From positions 1-54,396 of the forward strand of contig JAMOVK010000033.1 in NCBI GenBank assembly GCA_027067775.1: a stretch of 54,396 nucleotides of DNA, read 5' to 3'. Under the pieces are notes generated by a model that ran no database searches, had not been told where the DNA came from, and saw nothing but the letters and a program-made list of their open reading frames with translations. The DNA is from Deltaproteobacteria bacterium (GTDB lineage: Bacteria > Desulfobacterota > Dissulfuribacteria > Dissulfuribacterales > QOAL01). Numbering within the stretch: the first letter of the stretch is position 1; every line of letters begins with the position of its first letter. Below are positions 5,116 to 41,606 of this stretch, piece after piece. The position numbers and the translations under genes were made by a program.

Positions 5116-5139
5116 ATAGGGGAGAGGACAGGTAGAAAA

Positions 5140-6195
5140 ATGGATAAAAAAAAGACAGCGATTATTTTGATAATTCTGATTTTGGCTGCTGTAATCACCT
5201 ATGTTGTTTATCAAAAAAAGGAAAGCAGGAATAAGGGAAATATAGTCACCATATATGGAAACGTAGACATAAGACAGGTCCAGCTGGCCTTTTTTGACGA
5301 AGGCAGGATCAAAAGGCTCCTTGTTGATGAAGGTGCTGTGGTAAGGGCAGGAGATCTGCTTGGTGTGCTTGATGATGCAAGGCTCAAGGCAACAGTGGCC
5401 CAACTTGAAAATGAAGTAAATGCCCAGAAACAGATAGTGGCAAAGTTGCATGCAGGCTCAAGGCCCCAAGAAATCAAGGCTGCACGGGCTCGGGTTACTA
5501 AGGCAGAGGCGGCCGTAAGGGATGCCCGCATAACCTACGGAAGAGTCAAAAAACTTTCGGCAACCCGGTTCGTTTCAAGGCAGAAACTGGACGATGCCAA
5601 GGCACGTCTTGATATGACCCTGGCAGAGCTTGAAGAAGCAAAACAACTCTATTCCCTTGCCCTTGAAGGGCCAAGAAAGGAAGATGTAAAGGCTGCAGAG
5701 GCCAGACTCGAATCCCTAAAACATGCCCTTGTACTTGCAAGGGAAAAACTCAAGGACTCAAAGCTTTATGCACCGGCAGCTGGCATTATCAGAGACAGGA
5801 TACTTCAGCCCGGAGACATGGCCTTTCCAGAAAGGCCAGTATTTACCCTCGCCCTTACCACCCCTTTGTGGGTGAGAGCCTATATCCCAGAGCCTGATCT
5901 TGGAAAAATCGCCCTTGGAATGCAGGCTGAGGTGACCGTGGATAGTTTCCCAGATGAGGAATTTGATGGATGGGTAGGCTATATCTCTCCCACTGCCGAG
6001 TTTACCCCAAGGAATGTGGAAACCCCGGATCTTAGAACACGTCTGGTCTACCAGGTGAGGATTTACGTATGCAATCCTCAAAACAAGTTGCGCCTTGGCA
6101 TGCCTGCAACCGTACAAATTGATACTGCAAAAACAAGACATCAAGGGCCATTCGATCCGTCAACCATATGCAAAGACCAAGGCCAACAGTCGTAG
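5140..6195 (+). CDS. HlyD/EmrA-type membrane-fusion protein (YbhG-like)
   Basis: Periplasmic adaptor linking the ABC-2 inner-membrane pump to the TolC-type channel. The protein has 351 residues with a single N-terminal membrane anchor (TAIILIILILAAVITYVVY). A lipoyl-like half follows (VDIRQVQLAFFDEGRIKRLL, GAVVRAGDLLGVLDD), then a long alpha-helical hairpin (about 85-205) and the returning lipoyl half (LYAPAAGIIRDRILQPGDMA). A beta-barrel domain with PLWVRAYIPEPDLGKIALGM comes last. This order matches YbhG/YhiI adaptors, which work with exactly the gene set that follows (double ATPase plus two permeases). Only nine bases separate it from the ATPase gene. The exported substrate cannot be read from sequence. 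Confidence 0.9.
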   Translation: MDKKKTAIILIILILAAVITYVVYQKKESRNKGNIVTIYGNVDIRQVQLAFFDEGRIKRLLVDEGAVVRAGDLLGVLDDARLKATVAQLENEVNAQKQIVAKLHAGSRPQEIKAARARVTKAEAAVRDARITYGRVKKLSATRFVSRQKLDDAKARLDMTLAELEEAKQLYSLALEGPRKEDVKAAEARLESLKHALVLAREKLKDSKLYAPAAGIIRDRILQPGDMAFPERPVFTLALTTPLWVRAYIPEPDLGKIALGMQAEVTVDSFPDEEFDGWVGYISPTAEFTPRNVETPDLRTRLVYQVRIYVCNPQNKLRLGMPATVQIDTAKTRHQGPFDPSTICKDQGQQS

Positions 6196-22584: not shown

Positions 22585-22674
22585 GTTTGTGCCCTCCACA
22601 GACTTTTGGTGTTTCAAAAGAAAAGAAATTTTTTAATTGCTTGAAATGTAAAATAATCTAAGAAGATTGAATTT

Positions 22675-22711
22675 GTTACATTTTAGTAACATATTTAACA
22701 ACATAGTAACA
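22675..22711 (+). promoter_or_regulatory. Tandem TAACA repeats upstream of napC, probable regulator site
   Basis: GTTAC (22675) and GTAAC (22686) form an inverted pair six bases apart. GTAACA, TTAACA and GTAACA then occur at 22686, 22695 and 22706, about one helical turn apart; the longer TAGTAACA is repeated at 22684 and 22704. A possible -10, TAAAAT at 22723-22728, lies 11 bases further on with no good -35, so activator binding over the -35 position would make sense. Phased direct hexamers are typical of OmpR-family sites. Binding by the adjacent regulator is inference. Confidence 0.5.
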
Positions 22712-22777
22712 GAAAAATTCGCTAAAATTAAGGATGAAAATTTTTGCTATCCTTCATACCAACGCAGGAGGGTTTCC

Positions 22778-23329
22778 ATGAGGATTATCACAAACAATGG
22801 GGGGGCAGTACTGATTGCTTGCATTATTGCCTTCCTTGTGGCTCTGGTAGTAGCATTTTTTTCAGCTAAACAGGTACAATCTACCAGTACGGTGGAATTC
22901 TGCAATTCATGTCATGAAATGCACCCTTTTTATAGGACGTGGGCTGCAGGAAAACACGGCTGTGATGAAAAGGGTATTATCAGGGCTAGATGTGTGGACT
23001 GCCACCTGCCCCATGACAGCCTGGGAAACTACCTGAAGACCAAGACGCTTGCTGGTCTTCATGACATCAAGGCCCACTGGATGGGTAAAAAGACAGACTG
23101 GCTTACCCTATGGAAAAACAGGGGGCCCTATGTCCATGCAGCGTATGAGTCTGGTTGCAAGGAATGTCACAAGGAACTGGTGGCTCCAGGCATTCCAACA
23201 AAGGCCTTTTCTGCTCACAAGACCTATCTTGTTGGCCAGACCAAAAGAACATGCCTTGACTGTCACCACGAGGTGGGACATGGAGATCTTGTAAGTGAAT
23301 TCAGAGAAATTGCTAAAAAAGCCAATTAG
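22778..23329 (+). CDS. napC: NapC/NirT/NrfH-family tetraheme quinol dehydrogenase
   Basis: Membrane-anchored cytochrome c that takes electrons from the quinol pool into the periplasm. The 183-residue protein has one N-terminal membrane helix (AVLIACIIAFLVALVVAFF) and four CxxCH motifs (CNSCH, CVDCH, CKECH, CLDCH), as in NapC/NrfH. Phrases such as FCNSCHEMHPFYRTWAAGKH and RCVDCHLPHDS are typical. I chose the ATG at 22778 because AGGAGGG lies directly upstream; the frame is open 37 codons further but the extension is not protein-like. The next gene is an octaheme cytochrome, so it may serve that enzyme, NapA, or both. Confidence 0.9.
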   Translation: MRIITNNGGAVLIACIIAFLVALVVAFFSAKQVQSTSTVEFCNSCHEMHPFYRTWAAGKHGCDEKGIIRARCVDCHLPHDSLGNYLKTKTLAGLHDIKAHWMGKKTDWLTLWKNRGPYVHAAYESGCKECHKELVAPGIPTKAFSAHKTYLVGQTKRTCLDCHHEVGHGDLVSEFREIAKKAN

Positions 23330-23374
23330 TTTTGGGATTTGATTTAGAAAAATTAATAAATAAGGAGGGTTAAC

Positions 23375-24739
23375 ATGAAAAAACTATTTGGTAAAGCAGG
23401 CACACTGATACTGGCCAGTCTCTTTTTAGGCCTTGTATGCAGTGTGGCATTTGCCGAACAGGGTACTGGCAACGCCACACCCAAGCTCCACAAGGAGCTT
23501 GTTATAAAACGTGGCATGTCTCCTGAGGCAGCAAAATGTATTGAGTGTCACTCAAAAAAGACTCCTGGGATTGTAGAATCCTGGAAAAAGGGAAAGATGG
23601 CCCATGCCGCTGTATCATGCTATGACTGTCATGTAGTAGAAAAGAGTTCTCCAATGGCCAGCCAGTGTTCTGGCATTAGAGGTTCAAATGTCTATATCTC
23701 TCCCATGGTGTCATCCCGTACATGTTCACGCTGCCATCCCCAGGAGGTTGAGCAGTTTTTGAAAAGCGGTCATGCAAAACTGTCAAGTTTCCCAGTTGTT
23801 GAAAAGAAAAAGACCTTAAACCTTATATATCATCTTGAAGGAGCCGCATTTATTGGCAACAGCAGATCTAACTCTAGCAACTGGGCATCCAGGGAGGCTG
23901 GCTGCCAGATGTGTCACGGTGGCCAGGTAGAGCTCGGACCGGACCACAAGCCTGTTAAAAACACCTGGCCAGGCGGCGTTGGAACCAGATATCCTGATGG
24001 CTCCATCGGAACATGCACTGTATGTCATACCAGGCATCAGTTCTCTGTGGAGGAGGCAAGAAAGCCTGAAGCATGTGCAAGCTGTCACCTTGGTCCAGAC
24101 CATCCGGACATAGAAATTTACATAGAAAGCAAACATGGCCAGATATTTACCACTCAAGGGGAAACCTGGGAATGGGACAGTGCCCCTGATGCATGGCAGC
24201 CTGGAGATTATACGGCACCTACATGTGCTACTTGCCATATGAGCGGAATCGGTGAGCTGACCACTACACACAACATCAATGAAAGGCTCAAGTGGGATCT
24301 AGTCCATCCAAAGAGCGTGATTCGCTCAGGAGAAAGAGGTGATGGAGAAAAGGGTGCCAAGCTAATGAGAAAGGTATGTGCCAACTGTCACGGTCCAACA
24401 CAGATGCAGAAGGAAATCAACACCCTTGATGATGCTGTAGCCCTTTACAACTTCTACTGGGATGGCGCCGTAAAGATGAAAAAGGAATTGGAAGCAAAGG
24501 GCCTTCTTGGCAAAGATCCCTGGTCAGATGGATTCCAGGAGATCATGTACTACCTGTGGCATCATGCAGGAAGACGTGCCCGCCAGGGTGCTGCCATGAA
24601 CGGTCCTGACTATGCACACTGGCACGGCTTCTTCCAGATCTTTCAGATGTACAAGGATCTGCAGCAGATCTACAACTACCGCATGAAACACAACAAGATA
24701 GAAGAGCCTAGCACTGTAATGAGTACTGGTCCTCTTTAA
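23375..24739 (+). CDS. haoA: Octaheme cytochrome c of the hydroxylamine oxidoreductase (HAO) family
   Basis: Periplasmic 454-residue protein with an Ala-x-Ala signal peptide (cleavage near 27). It has eight CxxCH motifs at residues 55, 82, 117, 177, 214, 234, 284 and 335. The heme spacing, [20 protein letters not shown] after heme seven, CANCHG at heme eight, and a helical C-terminus with [12 protein letters not shown] fit the HAO family rather than NrfA (five hemes) or tetrathionate reductases. In nitrifiers HAO oxidises hydroxylamine. Homologues paired with NapC/NrfH proteins in anaerobes are thought to run reductively on nitrite or hydroxylamine. The upstream napC and downstream nap genes favour reduction. 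Whether the heme-crosslinking tyrosine is present needs an alignment; Tyr413 is a candidate only. An AAGGAGGG ribosome site precedes the ATG. Confidence 0.85.
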
Positions 24740-24772
24740 TAGGTAAGCTCCAAGGAGCATAAAGGTTGACAG

Positions 24773-24810
24773 AGGCTGTGGTTTATAGGGAGCCACAGCC
24801 TTATTCCATT
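24773..24810 (+). terminator. Hairpin after the HAO gene, probable partial terminator
   Basis: AGGCTGTGG (24773-24781) pairs perfectly with CCACAGCCT (24793-24801) around an 11-base loop. TATTCCATTTTTT follows. It lies between the octaheme gene and the porin gene, which has its own ribosome site, so it probably reduces read-through or protects the 3' end. Confidence 0.7.
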
Positions 24811-24850
24811 TTTTAAAAAGAAAAAGGAAAGAAAAAGGAGGGTTAAGGAA

Positions 24851-26290
24851 ATGAAAAGACCAATTTTTACAGTCTTGTTGGCCTTGCTGTTTTTAACAGC
24901 AGCCAATGCCTTTGCTTACAAAATTAACAAAAACGCCTACGTCAAGTTCAAAGAAGAGATAAGATATGAGAACTGGTCTACCTTTGAAAAGCCTAACACA
25001 CGGGATGACCAGTATGACTTTGTATCAAGCAAGATGCGTCTGGGTTTTGGTTTTAACTCCAAATTTATAGATGCATACAGTGAGATCAACTGGACCCAGT
25101 TCTTTGGTCTTCCGAGGCATGCATCCTATGGAACCGGTGCCCTTTACTATGGTCAAAACAACGGTGCCAGGGATGTGGGAAAGGTTGGTATAGACCAGTT
25201 GTGGTTAAGAGGCCGTTTGCCTGGAAGTGAAAACCTGAGCGCAACAATTGGACGTTTTAAATATAACAGCGGACTGGAGTACGGAACAAAGCCCAAGAAC
25301 AAACGTCTGCAGTGGCTCAGAAAACTTCGCATATCTCAACGACTGATAGGTGGATTTGAGTGGTCTCGCGTGGGCCGCTCCTTTGATGGGTTTCAGGTAG
25401 CCTGGAACGACAAGAGTTACAACTTTACAGTGGCAGGCTTCCAGCCTACACAGGGTGGTTTCTACCTCGATTACATGGAAAACGAGACAAAGGGCTACAA
25501 AATCCATGACATTGACATACTGACCGCTGTTTTCACCCTTAAAGACACGGTTATTCCAGGCCTTGATTCGCAACTTTTCTATTACTATTACAACGATGAC
25601 AGGGGCCTGCCAAATCAGGATCCTGAGATCAACACCATTGGTGGACACATTCTTTACGTCACTCCCAAAATGGGACCGGGTAGCTTTGACTTCCTGGTCT
25701 GGGGTGTATATCAGACAGGTGTCTGGGGCAAGGATGACCAGAGTGGCTATGCAGTTGCCCTTGAAGGCGGTTACAAGTTCGAGGACATCAACTGGACTCC
25801 TTGGGTACGAGGTGGCTTCTTCCAGGGCTCTGGTGATGACGATCCCAATGATAACGACCGCGACACCTTCTTCATGATGATGCCGACACTCCGCATCTAT
25901 GCCATGACTCCATGGTTTAACCTCATGAATACCACCTACTGTTTTGGCCAGCTTATGGTTAAACCTCTGCCAAACGTTCTTGTTCGCACCGATGTCACCA
26001 GACTTTGGCTCACGGAAAAGGAAGATGCATGGTACCAGGGCTCAGGTGCTACCAGGGCAGATATATTTGGCTACAAGCCCTTGAGGCCAGTAGGCGGCTT
26101 TGATGACGATGATCTTGGAACCATGTGGGATATATCCTTTTTTATAAAGGACATATACAAGGCCTATGGTGTTAGCATGGGTCTGGATCTGTACTACAGT
26201 CACGTTTGGGGAGACGACGTAGTGGAACAGGTCTTTACCAAAGACGAAGACCTTGATTTCTTCTACGCCGAATTCAGGTTTACATTCTAA
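24851..26290 (+). CDS. Outer-membrane beta-barrel porin (alginate-export-like)
   Basis: A 479-residue secreted protein with a signal peptide ending AFA (about residue 22). The rest is a succession of amphipathic strands rich in Tyr, Trp, Phe and Asp/Gly turns. It ends EFRFTF, a terminal phenylalanine recognised by the Bam machinery. Phrases such as VKFKEEIRYENW, SKMRLGFGFNSKF and ATIGRFKYNSGLEYG resemble alginate-export/OprD-like porins used for small anions in anaerobic respiration clusters. Acidic loops (GSGDDDPNDNDRD, GGFDDDD) may bind cations. Placement between the octaheme cytochrome and napM suggests it admits nitrate, nitrite or a related substrate; this is inference. A strong AAGGAGGG ribosome site is present. 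Confidence 0.82.
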   Translation: MKRPIFTVLLALLFLTAANAFAYKINKNAYVKFKEEIRYENWSTFEKPNTRDDQYDFVSSKMRLGFGFNSKFIDAYSEINWTQFFGLPRHASYGTGALYYGQNNGARDVGKVGIDQLWLRGRLPGSENLSATIGRFKYNSGLEYGTKPKNKRLQWLRKLRISQRLIGGFEWSRVGRSFDGFQVAWNDKSYNFTVAGFQPTQGGFYLDYMENETKGYKIHDIDILTAVFTLKDTVIPGLDSQLFYYYYNDDRGLPNQDPEINTIGGHILYVTPKMGPGSFDFLVWGVYQTGVWGKDDQSGYAVALEGGYKFEDINWTPWVRGGFFQGSGDDDPNDNDRDTFFMMMPTLRIYAMTPWFNLMNTTYCFGQLMVKPLPNVLVRTDVTRLWLTEKEDAWYQGSGATRADIFGYKPLRPVGGFDDDDLGTMWDISFFIKDIYKAYGVSMGLDLYYSHVWGDDVVEQVFTKDEDLDFFYAEFRFTF

Positions 26291-26302
26291 CCAAATGAAT
26301 AT

Positions 26303-26330
26303 GGGCCGGTTCATCCGGCCCTTTTCTTTT
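26303..26330 (+). terminator. Rho-independent terminator after the porin gene
   Basis: GGGCCGG (26303-26309) and CCGGCCC (26315-26321) form a seven-pair GC stem with loop TTCAT, followed directly by TTTTCTTTT. napM begins 13 bases further with its own strong ribosome site, so either read-through occurs or napM has a promoter within the porin gene. Confidence 0.85.
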
Positions 26331-26343
26331 CAGGAGGTGGAAA

Positions 26344-26724
26344 GTGAAAAATCAAATCATGAAACTTTGTTTGCTTGTGCTAACCATTGCAGTAGCCACT
26401 GTCTGTACAGCCGGTGCTTCAGAAAAACCCGCACAGACAAAGGCAACCGGAGGACATCCAGAACTTAGCCAACAGGAAATGCTTACTCCCTGTTCCCAGT
26501 GTCATAAAGAGGCCACTCCAGAAGTCTATAAAGAATGGTATGATTCGGTCCATGGCATTGCCAATGTAAAGTGTTTCCAGTGCCACGGGACATATGAAAA
26601 CCTTCAGGCATCACCTGACGAGACCTCTTGTGCTGCATGTCATAATGCACAGTATCAAAAAAGACCCAAAGACAAAAAATGCTGGGAATGCCATCCGGCC
26701 CATCACTTTTTTATCCACAAGTAG
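26344..26724 (+). CDS. napM: NapM-like periplasmic tetraheme cytochrome c
   Basis: A 126-residue secreted cytochrome. The start is GTG at 26344, preceded by AGGAGG at ideal distance. A signal peptide (LCLLVLTIAVATVCTAGAS) is followed by four CxxCH motifs (CSQCH, CFQCH, CAACH, CWECH) and ends CHPAHHFFIHK. Small tetraheme NapM precedes napA in the napCMADGH operon of Desulfovibrio desulfuricans, where it feeds electrons to monomeric NapA. The order here, napM directly before napA, matches that arrangement. It could also connect to the octaheme cytochrome. Confidence 0.85.
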   Translation: MKNQIMKLCLLVLTIAVATVCTAGASEKPAQTKATGGHPELSQQEMLTPCSQCHKEATPEVYKEWYDSVHGIANVKCFQCHGTYENLQASPDETSCAACHNAQYQKRPKDKKCWECHPAHHFFIHK

Positions 26725-26737
26725 GAAGGAGGTAATC

Positions 26738-29146
26738 ATGGGGCTTTCCAGAAGAGAGTTTATTAAAAGGACTGCCGCCTTAACAGCGGCATCATATGTA
26801 GGAATGAATCTTCCTTTTACTAATGAAAAAACTGTTCATGCTGCAGACGCTGACAGCTGGCACAAGGGAACCTGTAGACTGTGTGGTTCTGGCTGCCGGC
26901 TAGAGCTTGGAGTCAAAAACGGCAGAGCAGTGGCCCTTAGAGGTATTCCGGAATCAAGGACCAACAAAGGCTACCTCTGCATGAAGGGAATGCTTTTTTA
27001 TAAGCTGATGGGCAACAACCACCCTGAAAGGCTTAAAAAACCCCTTTACAGGGCCAGGAAAGACCAGCCGTTTAAGGAAATATCTTGGGATGAGGCCCTT
27101 GACATTGCAGCAAAGGAGTTTGCCAAGGCGGTCAAAAAATATGGCAATGACTCTGTTGCATACTATGGATCGGGACAGGCCCTAACCGAAGAGACCTATA
27201 TCTTTCAAAAGGTTATGAGGGGCGGACTTCAGACCAACAATGTTGAGGGTAACCCACGGCTTTGTATGGCCAGTGCTGTTGGTGGATATATTACATCCTT
27301 TGGAGCAGACGAGCCCATTGGCAGTTATACCAACTTTGAAAGGGCAAGCTGTTTCTTCATCATTGGCAGCAACACTGCCGAAGCCCATCCTGTGCTCTTC
27401 AGAAGGATAATGCGAAGGAAGCTCGACAACAGAGACAGGGTAAAGGTCATCAATGCAGACCCAAGGGTGTCCCCTACTTCAAGAATTGCCGATCTTCACC
27501 TACAGTTTGAACCAGGAACCGATCTCGCCCTTTTAAATGCAATGGCGTACGTAATTCTTGAAGACAAACTTTATGATGAAGACTTTATCAACAACTACGC
27601 TGTCTTTCGCATGGGCAAAGAAAAGAAGCAGGTTGATTTTAAAAAATATAAAGAATTCATCAAAGACTATACTCCAGAAAAGGCAGCTAGAACTTGTGGT
27701 GGTAACATAACACCAGAAAAGATCAGAAAGGCTGCCCACTGGTTTGCAAAGTCTGAAGGTACCATGTCCCTTTGGACCATGGGAATTAACCAAAGAAAGC
27801 GTGGAGTATGGGCAAACAACCTTATCCACAACCTCCATATCTTGACTGGTCAGCTTTGCAAGCCAGGCGCTGACAGTTTTTCTCTAACTGGCCAGCCCAA
27901 CGCCTGCGGTGGTGTGCGAGAAGGTGGAGGACTATGCCATATCCTTCCAGCCCACAGGCTTGTAAAGAAAGACAAGCTCAGACATGAGGTTGAAAGGTTA
28001 TGGGGCATCCCAGAAGGTCGCATCCCGCCCAAACCTGGCTATCATACAGTAGCCATGTTTGAGGCGGTCAATCAGGGCAAAATCAAGGCCATCTGGATCA
28101 ACTGCACAAGTCCGGCCCAGTCCCTTCCAAACTGCGACAAGTACAGAAAAGGCATGAAACGTGAAGACGTGTTTATGGTTGTCACAGACATCTTCCCAAC
28201 AAAAACCACAGAACTTGCAAATCTCATATTGCCCACAGCGTTCATCTTTGAAAAAACAGGTGTCTATGGCTGTACGGAAAGACGCTCACAGCTTACTGCC
28301 AAGGCAGTGGATGCACCAGGAGAGGCAAAACCCGAGGTATGGATGGTAAGAGAATGGGCCCTTAGACTTGCAAAGGAGCTTAAGGACCCAGTTATCAAAA
28401 AGTGCGTAGAACCGTTTCTTGGTAAAGAACCAGACTACGAGCTTCCCAAGGCCATATGGGACGAGTATACACAAAAACTTACCAAAGGCCGGGACAACGA
28501 TCTGAGGGGCGCAACTTACGAGGTGCTTGAAAAACTACCAGACGGTGTCCAATGGCCAGCTCCCACTAAAGAGTGGGCCCTTAAAGGGGGAACCGACATC
28601 AAATTCGTAAGAGGATTGGATCCCCTTGCAGACAAGCATGCAAAAAACGAGCTGCCATTCCAATTCTATGGCCCTGCCCATCCAGACAGGAAGCTGTGGA
28701 TCTGGCTAAGGCCGCAAAAGGGGCCAGAGGAAATGCCAGATTCCCAGTATCCCTTCTATCTGTCCACGGGCAGAATCATAGATCACTGGCATACAAGCAG
28801 TATGACAGGCCGCATCAAAGAACTCATGAGGGCAAATCCATATGCCTATGTAGAAATCAACCCGAAGGATGCTGAAAAACTCGGGATAAAGCCAGGAGAT
28901 ATGGTAGAGGTGGTATCAAGAAGGGGCAGAAATGTACTGCCTGCAAAGGTCTACGTTGGCCCATGTGAAGGCATGGTGTTTGTATACTGGCACGACCAGG
29001 ACGAAGACAGAATGATAAACCGGGTTACAAAGGATGCCTTTGATCCAGGGTCCAAAGAGCCTGAATTCAAGATATGTGCTTGTCGTATAAAAAAGGTCTC
29101 GGGCCCTAAACCACTAACTCCGTTCCTGGTCCAGTTAAAGGCGTGA
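26738..29146 (+). CDS. napA: Periplasmic nitrate reductase catalytic subunit (monomeric type)
   Basis: Reduces nitrate to nitrite at a bis-MGD molybdenum centre. The 802-residue protein has a Tat signal (SRREFIKRTAA, about 4-14). A [4Fe-4S] site is formed by Cys46, Cys49, Cys53 and Cys81 (CRLCGSGC then LCMKG). The molybdenum-ligand Cys176 is in GNPRLCMASAVGGY. NapA family phrases continue through the protein: FGADEPIGSYTNFE, MGINQRKRGVWANNLIHNLH, FSLTGQPNACGGVREGG, GRIIDHWHTSSMTGRI and DPGSKEPEFKICA. The ATG at 26738 is chosen for its AAGGAGG site and Tat signal. Absence of a NapB gene fits the monomeric Desulfovibrio-like branch. Folding would depend on NapD, encoded downstream. Confidence 0.93.
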   Translation: MGLSRREFIKRTAALTAASYVGMNLPFTNEKTVHAADADSWHKGTCRLCGSGCRLELGVKNGRAVALRGIPESRTNKGYLCMKGMLFYKLMGNNHPERLKKPLYRARKDQPFKEISWDEALDIAAKEFAKAVKKYGNDSVAYYGSGQALTEETYIFQKVMRGGLQTNNVEGNPRLCMASAVGGYITSFGADEPIGSYTNFERASCFFIIGSNTAEAHPVLFRRIMRRKLDNRDRVKVINADPRVSPTSRIADLHLQFEPGTDLALLNAMAYVILEDKLYDEDFINNYAVFRMGKEKKQVDFKKYKEFIKDYTPEKAARTCGGNITPEKIRKAAHWFAKSEGTMSLWTMGINQRKRGVWANNLIHNLHILTGQLCKPGADSFSLTGQPNACGGVREGGGLCHILPAHRLVKKDKLRHEVERLWGIPEGRIPPKPGYHTVAMFEAVNQGKIKAIWINCTSPAQSLPNCDKYRKGMKREDVFMVVTDIFPTKTTELANLILPTAFIFEKTGVYGCTERRSQLTAKAVDAPGEAKPEVWMVREWALRLAKELKDPVIKKCVEPFLGKEPDYELPKAIWDEYTQKLTKGRDNDLRGATYEVLEKLPDGVQWPAPTKEWALKGGTDIKFVRGLDPLADKHAKNELPFQFYGPAHPDRKLWIWLRPQKGPEEMPDSQYPFYLSTGRIIDHWHTSSMTGRIKELMRANPYAYVEINPKDAEKLGIKPGDMVEVVSRRGRNVLPAKVYVGPCEGMVFVYWHDQDEDRMINRVTKDAFDPGSKEPEFKICACRIKKVSGPKPLTPFLVQLKA

Positions 29147-29178
29147 TAATTGAAAATCCAAGGCCATAAGAAAATGGA

Positions 29179-29210
29179 GGGTCGGTGCATACAATGCATC
29201 GGCCCTTTTT
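29179..29210 (+). terminator. Rho-independent terminator after napA
   Basis: GGGTCGGTGCAT (29179-29190) pairs with ATGCATCGGCCC (29194-29205) around an ACA loop, 12 pairs including two G-U, followed by five T. It separates napA from the downstream accessory genes and overlaps a GTG that would otherwise extend the next open frame. Confidence 0.85.
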
Positions 29211-29223
29211 ATCAATGGATTAT

Positions 29224-29895
29224 ATGCACCAAAAAACTATGAAAAAATTTTTTATCATCATTTCATTCTTGTTAAGCATCTGTGTTATGCCAGCTTATGC
29301 TGAGGGTCCTGAATTTTTCTTTAGTCACGGCAAGGGAAAAGAATGTGCTGAAAACTGGCTCTTCATGGAAAAACTGTTGGACGAAAACGGCATCAGGTGT
29401 CGGGAAGTAAAACAGATAGCAGGCTTTCCCTATCTCAGGGGCAACCAAGAGATACTGGGCCTTGCATCCAAGATCTCAACCAAATACGCGGAACACAAAT
29501 GGCTAGAGCTCCTGCGAAGGATAGACCTTCAGGCCAGATATGCTGAGCTTTCAGCCCTTGATGAATCCAAACTTAAAAGTTTTTGCTCAAAAGCCAGAAT
29601 TGATTGCAGCCAAGGCAGAATTAGGGCCTATATAGCCAGATGCTCTGCAATAATCATGGGAGATGAAAAGACTAATCACAACTTTATGAAAATCCTTAAA
29701 GAACATGCGATCAGATCTCTAAGTAGCAATACCAGCTCTGGGAAAGCCAGGTGTTTTCAAGATCCCAAAACCCTGGATGGTGTTGCTGGACCTGATGTGG
29801 TCTCTTCCATTTTTATACCACCTCCAAAGACAAAAACATCTGTGGGAAGGCTTCAAAAGCGCATCCAGCTTCAAAAAAATGTCAGACCATATTAA
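29224..29895 (+). CDS. Unrecognised secreted protein between napA and napD
   Basis: I do not recognise a family. The 223-residue product has a signal peptide (FIIISFLLSICVMPAYA, cleavage near residue 26). The mature part has six cysteines (41, 59, 121, 128, 140, 177), no CxxCH motif and no further membrane segment. The first part (FFFSHGKGKECAENWLFMEK, GIRCREVKQIAGFPYLRGNQ) looks like a compact fold. The middle is helical (about 75-165) and the tail is basic and proline/lysine-rich. The ATG at 29224 has a weak GGAT upstream; 29239 is an alternative. It is 12 bases before napD and after a terminator, so it should be made with NapD, NapG and NapH, suggesting a periplasmic maturation or electron-transfer role. 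Confidence 0.75.
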   Translation: MHQKTMKKFFIIISFLLSICVMPAYAEGPEFFFSHGKGKECAENWLFMEKLLDENGIRCREVKQIAGFPYLRGNQEILGLASKISTKYAEHKWLELLRRIDLQARYAELSALDESKLKSFCSKARIDCSQGRIRAYIARCSAIIMGDEKTNHNFMKILKEHAIRSLSSNTSSGKARCFQDPKTLDGVAGPDVVSSIFIPPPKTKTSVGRLQKRIQLQKNVRPY

Positions 29896-29907
29896 AAGGT
29901 TAAGCAT

Positions 29908-30168
29908 ATGCCAATTGGTGGATTTGTTATAAACGTAGACCCGGAACGGATTGAGGAATCTCTTGTCAGACTAAAAGGTCTGGCGGGAGTGGAAATTCAC
30001 GGTAGCGACTCCAAGGGAAACGTGGTTGCTGTACTTGAGTCTGCCACCTCTGAGGATATGGAAAAGATGGTAAAGGATATCATGAAGATAGAAACAGTAT
30101 TTAGTGTAGGACTCACCTACTTTCACGCAGAAGATGAAGTCGAGAAAAAAGAGTATAGAAAAAAATAG
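29908..30168 (+). CDS. napD: NapD chaperone for NapA
   Basis: An 86-residue cytoplasmic protein with the NapD/TorD-like ferredoxin fold: GGFVINVDPERIEESLVRLK, then GVEIHGSDSKGNVVAVLES and VFSVGLTYFHAED. NapD binds the Tat signal peptide of NapA and holds it back until the molybdenum cofactor is inserted. Length and strand pattern fit the family (about 85-95 residues). Its end overlaps the start of napG by 35 bases, showing tight coupling. Confidence 0.88.
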   Translation: MPIGGFVINVDPERIEESLVRLKGLAGVEIHGSDSKGNVVAVLESATSEDMEKMVKDIMKIETVFSVGLTYFHAEDEVEKKEYRKK

Positions 30169-30775
30169 ATCAAAAAACAATTCGCGCAGGTCTTTTCTAA
30201 AACTTTCTGCAGCTGCAGCTGTGCTTGTTGGCATTTCAGAAAAAGGCCAGGCTTTTACCATCAAGGGCTCTCCAGTAAAGACCAATGTCCTTAGGCCACC
30301 TGGAGCAGTACCAGAAGAGATATTTCCTTCAAAGTGTATCAGATGCGGCAGATGCGTTGAGGTATGCCCTTATAAGGCTATTAGGCCACTTGATATACGT
30401 TCTGGAATTTATGCAGGAACCCCGCTCATCTTTGTAAAAGAGGTCCCATGCTATCTATGCATGAAGTGCGTTGAGGTATGCCCTACCGGTACATTGCGTC
30501 CCATAAGCCAAGAAGAAACCAGAATGGGACTTGCCGTGATAGACAAACATGCATGTATTACATGGAATCAGGAACTGGCCCTTTGCAGAACCTGTTACAA
30601 TGTCTGTCCCTTTAAAGAGAAGGCCATCAAGCTGAACGAACTAAGACCTGTTGTAATCGATGAATACTGTACCGGCTGTGGCCTTTGTGTCCATGGCTGT
30701 CAGATAACACAGCAAAATGGGAAAAAAGCTATAAATATAGAGCCAATTTACGCATACAGACCTGTTAAGTGGTAA
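30134..30775 (+). CDS. napG: NapG-type periplasmic ferredoxin with four [4Fe-4S] sites
   Basis: Electron carrier between NapH and the periplasmic reductase, 213 residues. A Tat signal (NSRRSFLKLSAAAAVLVGI) is followed by four cysteine clusters: CIRCGRCVEVCP, CYLCMKCVEVCP, a group around CRTCYNVCP, and CTGCGLCVHGC. LRPPGAVPEEIFPSKCIRCG is a typical NapG/MauM start. The ATG at 30134 lies within the end of napD. napH follows directly; NapGH act as a quinol dehydrogenase in many nap systems. With napC also present, two routes from quinol to the periplasm are encoded here. Confidence 0.9.
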   Translation: MKSRKKSIEKNRSKNNSRRSFLKLSAAAAVLVGISEKGQAFTIKGSPVKTNVLRPPGAVPEEIFPSKCIRCGRCVEVCPYKAIRPLDIRSGIYAGTPLIFVKEVPCYLCMKCVEVCPTGTLRPISQEETRMGLAVIDKHACITWNQELALCRTCYNVCPFKEKAIKLNELRPVVIDEYCTGCGLCVHGCQITQQNGKKAINIEPIYAYRPVKW

Positions 30776-30780
30776 AACAT

Positions 30781-31584
30781 ATGGCCAAGCGTTCCAAAAG
30801 ATACACTCCCTTAAGACTTCTGACACTGTCTTCAGCCTTTCTGCTAATCCTGGTTACACCCTATCTCAACATGCGTTTTCATTTTAATTTTATTCAGGGA
30901 TGGTTTCAGAGCCTGAGTATTGGCAATTTGTGGTTTGTTTCTCCTCTGGAAGGGCTTGAAAGCATACTCACCTCGAGATCCATTTACGGTCCCTTGTTGG
31001 TTGGCATGCTTACTCCAATAACGCTTGCTCTGCTTCTTGGCAGGGTATTTTGTAGCTGGATCTGCCCAATAAGTTTTTTAAGCGAGGTAACAGACTGGAT
31101 TATTCGACTATTTACGAGAAAGAAACACAGGCCTTTTGGTTTAAGACTTCCCAGAAGGGTATTCTGGTTTGCACTTATTGGCGAAATACTGATTGCCTTG
31201 ATTATAGGTGCTCCAATATTTGTCTTTTTGTCGCCTCCTGGTCTGGTTGGAAGGGAAATAATGATGATAACCCTATTCAAGACCATTGCCATAGAAGGTG
31301 TTGTTGTTGTTATAGTGCTGGCCATGCATGTGTTTTCAAAGAGGATGTTTTGCCGCTACTTTTGTCCTCTTGGAGCACTTCTTGCCCTTATTGGAATAAA
31401 AAGAAGACTTATAATAGAGGCTGATCTTGACGAATGCCTCAAATGCAACATGTGTAAAAGGGCATGTCCCCTTGGCCTTGATCCACAAAAAGGAGAAGGC
31501 ACATCACCATATTGTTGGAACTGTGGAAAATGTACTGAGGCATGCAAGGCCTCAGCCCTTGCATTTAAATGGAGAGAATTTTAA
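30781..31584 (+). CDS. napH: NapH-type membrane ferredoxin protein
   Basis: Inner-membrane quinol-oxidising partner of NapG, 267 residues. It has about four membrane helices (near 12-30, 70-90, 125-150, 160-180). CSWICPISFL and CRYFCPLGALLALIG are the CxxxCP motifs characteristic of NapH/NosR-type proteins. Two C-terminal [4Fe-4S] motifs follow: CLKCNMCKRACP and CWNCGKCTEACKA. The ATG at 30781 follows the napG stop by five bases; an in-frame GTG at 30769 would overlap it. It is the last recognisable nap gene. No napF, napB or napL was seen. Confidence 0.9.
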   Translation: MAKRSKRYTPLRLLTLSSAFLLILVTPYLNMRFHFNFIQGWFQSLSIGNLWFVSPLEGLESILTSRSIYGPLLVGMLTPITLALLLGRVFCSWICPISFLSEVTDWIIRLFTRKKHRPFGLRLPRRVFWFALIGEILIALIIGAPIFVFLSPPGLVGREIMMITLFKTIAIEGVVVVIVLAMHVFSKRMFCRYFCPLGALLALIGIKRRLIIEADLDECLKCNMCKRACPLGLDPQKGEGTSPYCWNCGKCTEACKASALAFKWREF

Positions 31585-35410: not shown

Positions 35411-36082
35411 TTACGAATTCTTGCTCTTAATATCGGCTTGCTTAGAAAGATTTTTTACCTTTTGCTCCATCATTGCAAGGAGTTCATCCACACCCTTTTT
35501 CTTAAGGACCTGATAAAACTGACTCCTGTAATTTTTAACTAGACTCACACCTTCAATAACCACATCATAACCAATCCACTTGCCATCTTTCTTTCTTTTT
35601 ATCAAACGATACTCTACAGGAATCTCCTGGCCATCCTTTACGATCTTTGTCAATACAGCAGCCTTTGTGGGAGAAAGCATTCTTTGATCTTCAAAGATAA
35701 CCTTTTCGCCTGAATAGTTCTCTATTCTGGAAAGATAGATACTTTCCAACATCTTTGAAAATAGCTCCTTAAACCGCTGGAACTGTTCTTTGTTAAAACG
35801 CCTAATGTATCTTCCAAGAACCCGACGGGAGATATCGTCCAAATCAAAAATCTGACTGACAAGGCTACGTAGTTTTTCCCGCCTTAGCTCTCGCTTGTCT
35901 GGAGACTTTAGGTTGGGGTCCTTTAATACTTCAAGGACTTGGTTGACTAGATTCTCTATCACTTTTTTTGGAGTTGGATCAACCTTTGCAAGCACAAGCC
36001 AGCTACCAAAGGATGCAAAGAAAAAAACCAACAATAAGGACACTGCCAGACGTTTAAGACCTAATAGTTTATACGCTCTCAT
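35411..36082 (-). CDS. mlaC: MlaC periplasmic phospholipid shuttle
   Basis: Carries phospholipids between the outer-membrane Mla complex and the inner-membrane MlaFED transporter. The 223-residue protein has a signal segment (VSLLLVFFFASFGSWLVLA) and the Ttg2/MlaC fold marks: DPTPKKVIENLVNQVLEVLK, FDLDDISRRVLGRYIRRFNK, FKELFSKMLESIYLSRIENY and WIGYDVVIEGVSLVKNYRSQ. It is last in the order ferredoxin, mlaE, mlaF, mlaD, mlaC, 46 bases after mlaD. No mlaB or mlaA is present in the window. Confidence 0.93.
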   Translation of the reverse strand: MRAYKLLGLKRLAVSLLLVFFFASFGSWLVLAKVDPTPKKVIENLVNQVLEVLKDPNLKSPDKRELRREKLRSLVSQIFDLDDISRRVLGRYIRRFNKEQFQRFKELFSKMLESIYLSRIENYSGEKVIFEDQRMLSPTKAAVLTKIVKDGQEIPVEYRLIKRKKDGKWIGYDVVIEGVSLVKNYRSQFYQVLKKKGVDELLAMMEQKVKNLSKQADIKSKNS

Positions 36083-36128: not shown

Positions 36129-36581
36129 CTACTTTTTCACGCTTCCAAAAACGTATTTGCTTATAAGGCTTTCAATGTCAATTGCCGATTCGGTATCGGT
36201 AATTACCCCACCTTCACCGAGCAATTCTTCAGAGCCTCCTGGCTGAATGCTTATATATTTATCTCCAATGAGTCCACTTGTCTTTACCGACGCTATGGCA
36301 TCCTCTTGTATTGGGATTCCCTTTTTTATCTTCATCTTGACAACGGCTACAAAATCGTTTGTGTCTAGGGTTATTGACTGCACCCTGCCTATCTCTACCC
36401 CTGCCATCTGTACGCTGCTATCTGGCTTGAGACCCGCAACGTTGTCAAAAGATGCACTGATATGATAGTAATCACCTCCAAGTAGTTCCATTTTGCCAAG
36501 CTTGATGGTGAGATATCCCACGCATAGGATGCCTATTAAAACAAAAATACCTACGATCGTCTCTTGGGAATATTTTTTCAT
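36129..36581 (-). CDS. mlaD: MlaD MCE-domain substrate-binding protein
   Basis: Hexameric lipid-binding component of the inner-membrane Mla transporter, 150 residues. An N-terminal membrane anchor (ETIVGIFVLIGILCVGYLTI) is followed by the single MCE domain with VAGLKPDSSVQMAGVEIGRV, TSGLIGDKYISIQPGG and the terminal IESLISKYVFGS helix. Its ATG overlaps the mlaF stop codon as ATGA. Length is normal for MlaD. Confidence 0.95.
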   Translation of the reverse strand: MKKYSQETIVGIFVLIGILCVGYLTIKLGKMELLGGDYYHISASFDNVAGLKPDSSVQMAGVEIGRVQSITLDTNDFVAVVKMKIKKGIPIQEDAIASVKTSGLIGDKYISIQPGGSEELLGEGGVITDTESAIDIESLISKYVFGSVKK

Positions 36582-37813
36582 TTTTTACCTGAAACTCCCT
36601 TACACTCCATTTTTGCAATAACTTTCTGATTTTTCTTTGCCGAAGCCAGTAAAGTTGCCATATCCATCGGCTGCCGGACTTCCAAAATTCCAGCTTTCAG
36701 ACAAAAGTCTATACATACCTTCTTGTATTTAGTCGGATCCATAAGTTCTTGTTGTGAACAATCAGACGAAATTTTATTGATGATCTCTTCAGCCCTTGAA
36801 GCGTCTGCACCTGGCAAAACCGCCAGTATTTCACTGGAACCAAATCTTGCTGCGTAATCCTTGTTTGACATATATCTTTTAAGTGTCATGGCAAGACACT
36901 GGAAAATCCTTTGGGAAGCAATGTAACCAACACCCTTTTTTATCTCTTCAAGATCGTCAATGGTAAAAAGCACTACTGTAAATATGGTCTTTTTCAAAGC
37001 AACCTGTTTAAGCAATTTCTCAACGAGTTTTTCTACCTCAGGACGTGGATTGAGGCCGGTAAGCTGGTCTTGAAGAACCTCTTGACCATGAATAAACTGC
37101 CATACAATCTCGTTATCGGACTGTTCTAACTCTAAAGGGGTACCCTGAAACGGAATCTTTTTATTCTCTATAATGGCCACACGATTGCTTATGAAAAAGA
37201 CATCAGGGATATCATGACTTACCATCACGCCTGTAAATCCAATCTCATGCTGATAATGGGCAATCATATTTAGCACGGCGTTTTTTCTTAAAGGGTCTAA
37301 GCCAGTGGTGGGCTCATCAAACAGTATCATGGTAGGCTCTGTAACCAATGCCCTTGCCAGGGCAACCCTCTTTTGCATGCCTCCAGAAATCTGTGAAGGA
37401 TAACGATCACGTACCTCTTCCAGCTCAAACTGTGCTATTCTAAAATCCACCCTTTTCTTAATTTCCTGGGGGGGCAACTTTGTACGCTCTACAAGGGGCA
37501 GAGCAATATTCTCAAAAACAGTCAAGGAATCAAAGAGGGCGTTGTTCTGAAACATGTAGCTAAGGGACCTTTTAAAGGCCTTCCATTCTGCCTTGGAAAA
37601 CTCGCTTAAAGGTTTGCCTTTTATGAGAATCTGACCAGAGTCTGGCTTAAGCAAACCAATTATATGCTTTAGCAATACGCTTTTGCCAACCCCACTCTTT
37701 CCAATAATGGAGGTGATCTCGCCCGAATATATCTTGAGATTCACCTTGTCTAACACTTGCAGGTTACCAAAACTCTTTGAGACGTCTTTAAATTCAATAA
37801 AAGGTTGGGTCAT
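36578..37813 (-). CDS. mlaF: MlaF-type ABC ATPase fused to a degenerate GGDEF-like domain
   Basis: ATPase of the Mla phospholipid transporter with an unusual extension; 411 residues against about 270 for usual MlaF. Residues 1-245 are a complete ABC domain: Walker A GKSGVGKS, signature ISGGMQKRVALARAL, Walker B MILFDEPTTGLD, H-loop VMVSHD. Residues about 248-395 resemble a diguanylate-cyclase domain: LTGLNPRPEVEKLVEKLL, FTVVLFTIDDLEEIKKGVGY, then RFGSSEILAVLPG where RYGGDEF is expected. GGDEF has become GSSEI, so cyclase activity is very unlikely and a binding or regulatory role is more plausible. It is adjacent to mlaE (12 bases) and overlaps mlaD. Confidence 0.88.
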   Translation of the reverse strand: MTQPFIEFKDVSKSFGNLQVLDKVNLKIYSGEITSIIGKSGVGKSVLLKHIIGLLKPDSGQILIKGKPLSEFSKAEWKAFKRSLSYMFQNNALFDSLTVFENIALPLVERTKLPPQEIKKRVDFRIAQFELEEVRDRYPSQISGGMQKRVALARALVTEPTMILFDEPTTGLDPLRKNAVLNMIAHYQHEIGFTGVMVSHDIPDVFFISNRVAIIENKKIPFQGTPLELEQSDNEIVWQFIHGQEVLQDQLTGLNPRPEVEKLVEKLLKQVALKKTIFTVVLFTIDDLEEIKKGVGYIASQRIFQCLAMTLKRYMSNKDYAARFGSSEILAVLPGADASRAEEIINKISSDCSQQELMDPTKYKKVCIDFCLKAGILEVRQPMDMATLLASAKKNQKVIAKMECKGVSGKK

Positions 37814-37825
37814 TTTCCTATGATC

Positions 37826-38695
37826 TTAAAGCAAAAAAGATGTCAATACATAGTCAAGCACAAGAACCAGTACACATGAGATAACCACTGCAGATGTGGT
37901 AGCCAGGCTCACACCTTTGGCACCAAATCCTCCAGGACGCATATGGGTAAAGTATCCCTGATAGCAGCAAATGGTAGAAACCACCAGGGCAAAAAATAGA
38001 CTCTTTAGAAATCCCCCCGTCACATCCTTCAAGACCACGCTGTCGTAGATTCTATTAAAAAATATTCCCGAATTGACACCAAGCAGAAGCACTCCGGTAA
38101 GATACCCCCCTATCATGCCAATAACATCAAAAAGAGCGGTGAGCAAAGGAAATGTAATCACAGAGGCAGCGATCCTTGGACTTACCAAAAACTTCATGGG
38201 ATTAATGTCCATGGTATCTAGGGCATCAATCTGTTCTGAAATTCTCATGATACCTATCTCAGCTGCAATGGAAGAGCCGGCTCTTCCGATCACCATAAGT
38301 GCAGTAAGTACCGGTCCAAGCTCTCTTATCAGTGACAGTGCAACCGCTGCACCAAGCATGCCTTCGGCGCCAAACTTGACCAGGGTATAATAGCCCTGAA
38401 GTCCAAGGACCATACCAGTAAACAGACCAATGAGGCTGATAATCAGAAAAGACTTGACCCCAATGAAATAAACCTGCTGGATAATCTTTCTAAACTGAAA
38501 CGGGTATGTAAAAATCAATACAAATCCATAAGCAAAGAATATGGCTACAGCCCCAAGCTCCCCTATCACTTTTAGGGTAACTTGCCCCAGCCAGTTGACC
38601 AAGCCCATTATGGATAGTGCTTTTTCGGTTCTACTTGCATTCATCACGTTCGTCCAAACCTGTTTATCAGGGGCTATCCAATCAAGGATAGTCAC
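37826..38695 (-). CDS. mlaE: MlaE permease
   Basis: Inner-membrane permease of the Mla transporter, up to 289 residues. It contains the MlaE/Ttg2B phrases IGVKSFLIISLIGLFTGMVL, LIRELGPVLTALMVIGRAGS, MRISEQIDALDTM and PRIAASVITFPLLTALFDVI, with five to six membrane helices. The open frame starts at a GTG (38695) five bases beyond the ferredoxin stop, suggesting coupling. An ATG at 38644 (MNASRTEK) is an alternative that gives a more usual length. Confidence 0.93.
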   Translation of the reverse strand: MTILDWIAPDKQVWTNVMNASRTEKALSIMGLVNWLGQVTLKVIGELGAVAIFFAYGFVLIFTYPFQFRKIIQQVYFIGVKSFLIISLIGLFTGMVLGLQGYYTLVKFGAEGMLGAAVALSLIRELGPVLTALMVIGRAGSSIAAEIGIMRISEQIDALDTMDINPMKFLVSPRIAASVITFPLLTALFDVIGMIGGYLTGVLLLGVNSGIFFNRIYDSVVLKDVTGGFLKSLFFALVVSTICCYQGYFTHMRPGGFGAKGVSLATTSAVVISCVLVLVLDYVLTSFLL

Positions 38696-39017: not shown

Positions 39018-41606
39018 TTATGTGGTTATTTGGTAAAGAGCCTCTTTGAGCTCTTGAATAGTAAAAGGTTTTTGGATAAATACACCCACATTTGAAATAC
39101 TACCTTTTTTTTCCAGAATCTGCTCACTGTATCCAGACATGAGAAGAACCTTGGTAGTTGGAAAAAGTCTCTTGACCTGTCGCGTCACTTCTAAGCCGTC
39201 TTTTCCAGGCATGACTACGTCGGTAATAAATATGTCCGGCTCTTTACCCTTATAGCCTGCCAGAAAAGAGTCAAATTCACTTGGATTAGAAAAGTGTTTG
39301 ACTTGAAAGTCGAGTTTCCTTAAATACTCTACTACCGTTGACCTAACTATCGGTTCATCTTCAAGGAGAAAGACAAGTCTTCCCTTCCCTCTGATGTTCC
39401 TATCAATTTCAAGCCTTTTGATAGAAGTCTTATACTTGGCCTTCTTCTCAATAGCTGGAAGAAAAATAGTTACCCTAGTGCCTTTGCCAGGTGTACTGTC
39501 CAGGGCGATATCACCCCTGCTCTGCTTAACAGTGCCGTATATCATAGCAAGCCCCAAACCTGTACCCTGCCCTAGGGGCTTAGTTGTAAAAAAAGGTTCA
39601 AAGGCGCGCTCCAAGACCTCCTTTTCCATACCACCACCATTGTCTTCAAAGGTGATAATAGCAGCCCTTCCCACATCATCTTTCAAATGACGCAATATCT
39701 TACGGCTTTTCGAAACTCTGGTGGTAACCACTATTTTGCCTTTTCCATCCATGGCGTCCCTAGAATTAAGGGCAAGATTTAGAAAAATTTGCAAAAATCT
39801 GCCTGGATCCACTTCGATGGTGCAATCGGCTTTGCCTGGTATAAATTCTACAGCTATTTCTTCGCCCAAGAGTCTTTCAAAAAAGAGGCATGCCTCACCA
39901 ACCGCCTTGTTCAAAGACACCCTTTCAGGTTTTAGGGTCTGTTTTCTGCTAAAGGCCAGTAGCTGGTTCGTGGTCTCAGCAGCCCTCTTTGCGGCTTTGT
40001 TAATTATCTGAAGCTTTCGATAAGACTCCGTCTCTGGTTCCATCTCCATAAGCAACATCTGGCAGTAACCCATTATGGCCGTGAGCTGATTGTTAAAGTC
40101 ATGAGCTACTCCCCCAGCAAGCCTGCCAATGGCCTCCATCTTCTGTACCTCTCTAAGCTTTTCCTGAAGCTGCCTTTGAGAGGTAATATCCGTGCCCACT
40201 ACCAGAAAATGTGTCTCACCTTTTTGCCTTGATGAAACATAGGGACTTATTTTCCATGCTATGAGCCTTCTTCTGCCCTTCCAGTCACTGACATGGGCCT
40301 CAAACCTGCCACCATTTTCCAGCCGCGTGTTTTGGTTTAGAAATTTTTCTAATCCTTCAGAACTTGAAAGAAGAAGGGAAACAAAAGGAATACCGGTTAA
40401 TTCTGATTGAGATTTTCCCAACATATCAGCAAGGACCGTATTTACCTGAAAGATTGTGCCATCCTTAAAAATCTCAGCCACCAATACCCCTGCCGTTTCT
40501 ATAATAAGCTTATTAAAATCACGCTGTTCAACAAGCTTCTGTTCCAGTTCTTGTTGACTGCTAAGATCTTCTATCAAGGCATAAGCGCCAATCACCACGC
40601 CCTCGTCATTCCTTAAAGGGAAACCAATTAATGAAATAAAAAGCTCCCTGTCTGTGAGGGCTGTAACATATTTTCCTGTAAATTTTATTTCATTTCCTCG
40701 GAGCACCTCTCTGGCCCAGTCGCGAAAGGTTGGATTGGTTGCAGAAAGAGAATTCAGACCTATAAGTTCATCGCGGCTCACCCCAATCAGCTCTGCCAAG
40801 CGCCTATTACAATCAACAATTACCCCATTTCTGTCTATGCATAAAAAACCAAGCGGACCTTTTTCAAAAAAGAGCCTGCTGCGTTCTTCTGCCTTTGTAA
40901 GGGCAAACTCAAGCTCTTTTTGAGCTGTTATATCCCTAAGCATGGAAAAACATGAACCGCTATCACCAGACAAAGTAGTAAAAATAATCCTGTGTTCCAC
41001 CCACCTGTAACTTCCATTGGTATGGGTAAGCCGATAGGAAATCTCGCAATCCTCTTTTGAAGGATTGGCACCAAAATTTTTTAAAAATGTTACCACCCTG
41101 GCCCTATCCTCCGGATGAACAAGCAACCTGTAGGTATCTTTATCTCTGATAAACTTATCCAGGGGTAAACCTGTCCATTTTTCAAGGCTGGAGGTAGCAA
41201 ATCTGATATCTAAGATGTCATGACAAGGGGAATAGAGACTTACTATCGGCAGATGATCAAGAAGCGTGGCACAGGTAGCATCTGAAAAAAATAGCAGGAA
41301 ATAGGTGTGATTTTCACAGGTTTTTAAGGGCACCACCTGACATTTTATAAATGGTCCTACTCCTAAATCCCCAGGATCAACTTCAAAGGTGACCGATCTG
41401 TTCTGCTGATTCTTGTATGGCCTTTCATTAAAGATCTTCGACAGGGCGTTGCCAAAAAGTCGATGGTATGACCTCAAGACCGCGAGATCTTCTCCTTTGC
41501 CAAGGGATGTAGAGGCATAGATGATGTTTTTATGCTTATCCATCAAGAGGCATGGCAGATCAAGCCTATCCAGAAATTCTTTTATCTGTTGAAGACTCTG
41601 GTCCAT
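39018..41606 (-). CDS. Multi-PAS hybrid histidine kinase with C-terminal receiver
   Basis: A soluble 862-residue sensor kinase; no convincing membrane helix is seen. An N-terminal PAS-like segment is followed by PAS repeats (about 120-240, 245-360, 370-480; for example FATSSLEKWTGLPLD, LGFLCIDRNGVIVDCNRRLA, IFQVNTVLADMLGKSQSELT). HisKA carries the phospho-His in RLAGGVAHDFNNQLTAIMGY. HATPase shows NSRDAMDGKG, FEDNGGGMEK and GQGTGLGLAMIYG. The receiver carries the phosphoacceptor in DIFITDVVMPGKDGLEVTRQ. Such proteins pass phosphate on through a separate histidine transferase or act as stand-alone regulators. The stimulus is unknown. It follows the RmlC-like gene by 26 bases. Confidence 0.9.
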   Translation of the reverse strand: MDQSLQQIKEFLDRLDLPCLLMDKHKNIIYASTSLGKGEDLAVLRSYHRLFGNALSKIFNERPYKNQQNRSVTFEVDPGDLGVGPFIKCQVVPLKTCENHTYFLLFFSDATCATLLDHLPIVSLYSPCHDILDIRFATSSLEKWTGLPLDKFIRDKDTYRLLVHPEDRARVVTFLKNFGANPSKEDCEISYRLTHTNGSYRWVEHRIIFTTLSGDSGSCFSMLRDITAQKELEFALTKAEERSRLFFEKGPLGFLCIDRNGVIVDCNRRLAELIGVSRDELIGLNSLSATNPTFRDWAREVLRGNEIKFTGKYVTALTDRELFISLIGFPLRNDEGVVIGAYALIEDLSSQQELEQKLVEQRDFNKLIIETAGVLVAEIFKDGTIFQVNTVLADMLGKSQSELTGIPFVSLLLSSSEGLEKFLNQNTRLENGGRFEAHVSDWKGRRRLIAWKISPYVSSRQKGETHFLVVGTDITSQRQLQEKLREVQKMEAIGRLAGGVAHDFNNQLTAIMGYCQMLLMEMEPETESYRKLQIINKAAKRAAETTNQLLAFSRKQTLKPERVSLNKAVGEACLFFERLLGEEIAVEFIPGKADCTIEVDPGRFLQIFLNLALNSRDAMDGKGKIVVTTRVSKSRKILRHLKDDVGRAAIITFEDNGGGMEKEVLERAFEPFFTTKPLGQGTGLGLAMIYGTVKQSRGDIALDSTPGKGTRVTIFLPAIEKKAKYKTSIKRLEIDRNIRGKGRLVFLLEDEPIVRSTVVEYLRKLDFQVKHFSNPSEFDSFLAGYKGKEPDIFITDVVMPGKDGLEVTRQVKRLFPTTKVLLMSGYSEQILEKKGSISNVGVFIQKPFTIQELKEALYQITT

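Follow-up and report, generated by a model that had tools for sequence, protein, structure and literature searches.

The gene at positions 36578..37813 (-) of the 54,396-nucleotide stretch of DNA analysed here (the window) raises the question of why the ATPase of a phospholipid transporter should carry a GGDEF-like domain. An earlier note had described it as an Mla ATPase and a degenerate GGDEF-like domain in one protein, with the motif GSSEI, and this description was indeed confirmed. The protein has 411 residues and is encoded by a single unbroken ORF. Pfam searches returned ABC_tran at residues 21-170 (1.8e-38) and GGDEF (PF00990) at residues 248-394 (36632..37072 (-); 6.6e-15, with 55.7 bits exceeding the cut-off of 23.8), the latter being among seven GGDEF matches in the whole-genome search. 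The MlaF ABC ATPase part comprises residues 1-243 (37085..37813 (-)), which matched 6xbd, 7cgn and 7d06 by phmmer at 1e-49 to 1e-50, and a short flexible hinge follows at residues 244-247 (37073..37084 (-)). A misassembly or chance ORF was ruled out, since the identical in-frame fusion occurs in dozens of genomes.

The ATPase part and its neighbours were then compared with known Mla components. The best PDB matches of the ATPase part were MlaF structures (7d06, 6z5u, 6xbd and 7cgn), as were the top Foldseek matches of the full-length model (6xgz and 6xgy). The signature SGGM is present, as SGGMQKR. The protein scored 194.7 bits against the strict cut-off of 441 bits for NCBIfam PRK11831, and its assignment to MlaF relies on the best-matching structures, the SGGM signature and the joint encoding with mlaE, mlaD and mlaC. 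The permease gene mlaE (37826..38695 (-)) encodes 289 residues in which no N-terminal STAS domain was found, and it matched Pfam MlaE (3e-80) and TIGR00056 (7.7e-73). The product of mlaD (36129..36581 (-)) is an MCE protein of 150 residues that scored above the cut-off for TIGR04430 OM_asym_MlaD (2.3e-49), and the mlaD start codon overlaps the mlaF stop codon (ATGA). The gene mlaC (35411..36082 (-)) encodes a periplasmic lipid carrier of 223 residues (Pfam MlaC, 2.4e-47), giving the order mlaE-mlaF::GGDEF-mlaD-mlaC. The fusion gene encodes the ATPase component of a true Mla phospholipid transport system, consisting of MlaE-F-D with MlaC, and with MlaA encoded on another contig of the same genome. 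Just upstream of mlaE, at window positions 39018-41606 (-), a PAS-type hybrid histidine kinase with a receiver domain was recognised by reading. Multihaem cytochrome-like proteins, a large outer-membrane-like protein, and molybdopterin oxidoreductase-like and ferredoxin-type proteins were likewise read at 22667-31584 (+), and the make-up of this cluster suggests a respiratory oxidoreductase.

The C-terminal domain was modelled with AlphaFold2 (AF2) from 19 natural sequences, with a pLDDT of 84 and a pTM of 0.82. GGDEF-domain structures filled the top ranks of the Foldseek and VIA-align searches with this model, and the cyclase matches had Z scores of 16-17. The model matched PleD (2wb4) with a VIA Z score of 16.8, and 3ign with a Z score of 16.8 and 2.9 Å over 148 residues; the modelled fold extends to about residue 402. 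The C-terminal domain has a clear GGDEF fold, which answers the comparison with PleD-type domains that had been proposed as a check. In the full-length AF2 model (pLDDT 82.9, pTM 0.62), both domains were well formed. The hinge was of low confidence (pLDDT below 50 at residues 243-247), and together with the pTM of 0.62 this means that the relative placement of the domains is not fixed by the model. MetN ranked high in the fold search with the full-length model, aligning over 359-398 columns with an rmsd of ~11-13 Å, the placement between the domains being unmatched.

Whether the domain could still work as a cyclase was judged from an alignment of 64 distinct fusion proteins with three intact cyclases that this genome also encodes. 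In the fusion protein here, T284, E289, K292 and Q301 occupy the positions of the metal-binding Asp, Lys332, Asn335 and Asp344 of PleD, respectively. The metal-ligand Asp (PleD D327; Thr284, 36962..36964 (-)) was absent across the family and its position was taken by Thr or Ser in 52/64 members, while no member had the guanine-binding Asp (PleD D344; Gln301, 36911..36913 (-)), with Gln in 54 of the 64. Lys332 was found in 3/64 and Asn335 in 15/64. The GG(D/E)EF motif occurred in 0/64 members and reads GSSEI here (325-329; 36827..36841 (-)). At the RxxD inhibitory site (I-site), SNKD was found (316-319; 36857..36868 (-)) with the Arg lost, and the family has Arg in 7/64 and Gly in 32/64 at this position. 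In the three intact cyclases, D327, K332, N335, D344 and the I-site Arg are all present. The residues retained by the fusion family are structural: DQLTGL (249-254; 37052..37069 (-)) is the kept DxLTGL start of GGDEF domains (family G 63/64, T 59/64, D 46/64), and the equivalents of Gly339 and Arg366 were present in 62 and in all 64 members, respectively. An active diguanylate cyclase was ruled out family-wide by the catalytic positions. Judged from these residues, the domain is a pseudo-cyclase throughout the family and long dead as an enzyme.

The loss of GTP-, metal- and c-di-GMP-binding residues across the family also disfavours the suggestion in the earlier note that the extension senses a nucleotide. 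In BcsE and PelD, degenerate GGDEF domains do act as receptors for c-di-GMP (PMC7439463); however, the RxxD I-site used by receptors of this fold is the very motif that reads SNKD here. The new consensus of Thr/Ser and Gln at the two old Asp positions makes the site look remodelled, not merely decayed, and suggests re-specialisation over free decay. The domain might thus be an allosteric sensor, in which the Thr/Ser-Gln pocket or another surface would bind a small molecule or nucleotide and switch lipid transport, comparable to MetN C2 with methionine; MetN and ModC both have ligand-binding C-terminal domains (PMC10710835). However, the residues that would bind metal and guanine have been lost and, beyond the Thr/Ser-Gln pair, the former pocket positions vary widely within the family, so that we regard a sensor as rather unlikely. 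It is unlikely, too, that the GGDEF fold was turned once, phylum-wide, into an allosteric switch of Mla that dispenses with MlaB and has a putative ligand at Thr/Ser284-Gln301. If it were so, a signal from the cytoplasm would be coupled to lipid traffic at the outer membrane, with no part for MlaB.

Within the genus, the domain was ~60-70% identical, compared to 90-95% for the ATPase. The dN/dS of the domain was ~0.09-0.18 where dS was unsaturated, and dS was saturated in the ATPase part. The domain remains under purifying selection. The faster evolution relative to the ATPase and the truncated copy at L132 described below would fit a domain that is an inert leftover, tolerated at the end of the protein. 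However, 18 families have kept the domain at full length, its fold is conserved and its dN/dS is below 0.2, and we consider this reading highly improbable.

The fusion was present in 8/8 other members of the genus and 10/10 members of the family searched, with the same neighbour genes wherever the locus was read in these genomes. In the order, it was also found in families f2, f3 (with the domain split over two matches) and f5; several other families of the order are without it and have an unfused MlaF that is 43-50% identical, and further unfused MlaFs elsewhere in the phylum are 39-48% identical. Across Desulfobacterota, whose survey had been proposed from the sequence, 51-52 of the 395 sampled genomes carry the fusion, in 18 families. 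A profile of the domain identified 51 of these genomes, and one more (G325) was added after operon inspection. Fusions were scored at 52 places with at least 144 bits and a match beginning at the first profile positions, whereas a complete domain of an ordinary cyclase scored no more than ~112 bits, and most such matches began only at position 16 or beyond. Nearly all fusions with a readable locus adjoin mlaE, mlaD and mlaC. A lineage-specific oddity was ruled out by this phylum-wide occurrence. No confirmed fusion was found outside this group in one scan of named genomes, in which a Colwellia match (L060) showed 23% identity over 101 residues. One genome of family f70 (G176) has two different MlaF-GGDEF fusions ~3 kb apart (L111:477-1829 and 4731-6062). 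In family f50, three loci (L133:3165-4172, L134:3599-4468 and L135:3348-4343) encode unfused MlaF-like ATPases that are 60% identical, with no recognisable MlaE, MlaD or MlaC within ~3 kb.

In a first tree, with an unfused set taken from other lineages, the fused proteins formed a clade with a support of 100. In an IQ-TREE phylogeny of 80 ATPase domains that included the closest unfused MlaFs, the fused proteins all fell into a single well-supported group, which also holds a few unfused MlaFs, including L131 and L136. This tree needs four changes of fusion state, and a single fused clade was not rejected (AU p 0.087). We read the tree as pointing to one ancient gain early in the phylum and a few losses. 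At L132:3283-4155, MlaF carries a ~45-residue remnant of the domain start, with mlaD directly after it and the operon intact. This remnant is a secondary loss, visible in progress, and represents a natural deletion of the domain.

The earlier note had further stated that no mlaB gene is present and had proposed that the extension may replace MlaB. The first point stood: whole-genome STAS and STAS_2 domain scans revealed no mlaB adjoining the fusion operon, and the STAS matches of the genome sit on contigs C129, C139 and C148. The best STAS_2 match was the N-terminus of a second MlaE at another locus. This locus on contig C148 (L038:1438-3236) is a second one of Mla/MCE type, with STAS fused to the MlaE N-terminus and followed by an ABC ATPase gene that continues past the end of the sequence read. 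A lone mlaB elsewhere in the genome was also sought, and the scans gave only this STAS-MlaE fusion, two STAS proteins on C129, which are neighbours beside ORFs reading like anti-sigma-type kinases, and a protein of 770 residues. The STAS_2 matches of the relatives likewise lie away from their mlaEFDC operons, and no mlaB was recognised in any fusion operon read. A specific MlaB substitute on the MlaB-binding face of MlaF would account for this absence and would suit the contact that the E. coli MlaF extension itself makes with MlaB at the dimer edge (PMC7367683). However, unfused mlaEFDC operons of the same order and phylum are equally without mlaB, and no STAS-like small ORF was seen at them when their ORFs were inspected by eye. 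The loss of mlaB is thus not tied to the gain of the domain, which weakens the proposal. In addition, MlaB is sparsely distributed among diderm bacteria (PMC10665443) and the GGDEF fold is not the STAS fold. We judge a specific substitute for MlaB to be quite improbable.

The other STAS and GGDEF proteins of this genome, together with the fast evolution of the domain, would also agree with a docking platform for a trans partner, such as a STAS protein, a true diguanylate cyclase or another regulator, that recruits or regulates Mla. The GGDEF* domain of BcsE indeed binds BcsQ independently of c-di-GMP (PMC7439463). However, the operons read contain E-F-D-C only, with no co-encoded partner, and in the second system the STAS domain is already part of that system's MlaE. 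A docking platform therefore appears doubtful.

The position of the domain points to a different role. MlaF homology between the window protein and E. coli stops at residue 243 here and at E. coli residue 246, so that the GGDEF-fold domain begins where the E. coli handshake extension begins. In E. coli, residues 247-269 of MlaF form this "handshake" around the neighbouring MlaF (PMC7367683). The extension is needed for function, its deletion causes the loss of MlaF from the complex, and the unrelated dimeriser GCN4 in its place largely restores function (PMC7367683). In MetN and ModC, the C-terminal domains pair below the ATPases, regulate them and bind ligand (PMC10710835). As the alignment places it, the domain here replaces the E. 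coli MlaF handshake extension position for position. GGDEF domains commonly pair, and here the two GGDEF-fold domains may form a pair, or each may pair with the MlaF next to it.

We propose that the C-terminal tail of MlaF was swapped for a GGDEF domain early in the phylum and that the cyclase function was then lost. The domain would serve as a non-catalytic structural or regulatory module, MetN-C2-like, below the two nucleotide-binding domains. Pairing of the domains would stabilise or restrain both the dimer of MlaF and the attachment of that dimer to MlaE, and the module would do the work of the E. coli handshake extension and MlaB, and of MetN C2. Such a module, pairing the two MlaF subunits or tuning them, is the most economical reading and the one we favour, at about even odds, and within it we infer the dimer pairing and any effect on lipid flux. 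The clear GGDEF fold, the start at an extension that GCN4 can replace, and the full-length model that is alignable with MetN, whose C2 dimerises below the nucleotide-binding domains, all speak for it. Furthermore, structural residues have stayed in place under a low dN/dS, in contrast to those of the active site, and the fusion recurs in 18 families, nearly always in a readable mlaEFDC operon. However, unfused relatives with short tails and no mlaB keep the operon, showing that the module is not obligatory. The L132 remnant, and the unfused L131 and L136 inside the fused clade, mean that the domain is dispensable there, and its faster evolution than the ATPase could also reflect a weakly constrained linker.

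Comparison with known systems shows what is shared and what is not. As in the MlaFEDB-MlaC-MlaA systems of E. coli and A. baumannii, MlaE, MlaF, a short MlaD and MlaC are encoded in one operon and MlaA elsewhere. The order here is E-F-D-C, however, mlaB is missing, and the GGDEF-fold domain stands in place of the ~25-aa handshake extension, which is of the E. coli type and not established as general for MlaF. The domain shares the fold, the order of elements, the DxLTGL start and the Gly339 and Arg366 equivalents with the GGDEF domains of PleD, DgcR and WspR, whereas the metal Asp, Lys332, Asp344 and GG(D/E)EF are replaced, Asn335 is variably kept and the I-site Arg is lost. It resembles MetN C2 and ModC as an extra folded C-terminal domain on an ABC ATPase, possibly with self-pairing, but belongs to a different domain family, and ligand and pairing are known for those importers. 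Similar to the GGDEF* domains of BcsE and PelD, it is a GGDEF fold that is catalytically dead and belongs to a system for envelope export. Those domains, in contrast, have retained the RxxD I-site and are c-di-GMP binders, whereas the domain here no longer has the I-site Arg and forms one chain with an ABC ATPase. We classify the fusion as a variant of the Mla transporter, neither a cyclase nor a c-di-GMP receptor.

The expectation that a link between GGDEF folds and lipid transport would be novel agrees with our survey of the open-access literature (preprints outside its scope), in which no prior report was found. It contained no link of MlaF or MlaE with GGDEF, the few co-mentions being unrelated screens, and no report of an ABC ATPase-GGDEF fusion. 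The finding bears on how MlaF assembles and is switched, as MlaF of E. coli needs both the C-terminal extension and MlaB and many Mla operons are without MlaB. This lineage provides a natural experiment, since a folded domain that is easily deleted, swapped or mutated stands in place of the extension. It also extends pseudo-GGDEF domains to an ABC ATPase of lipid transport.
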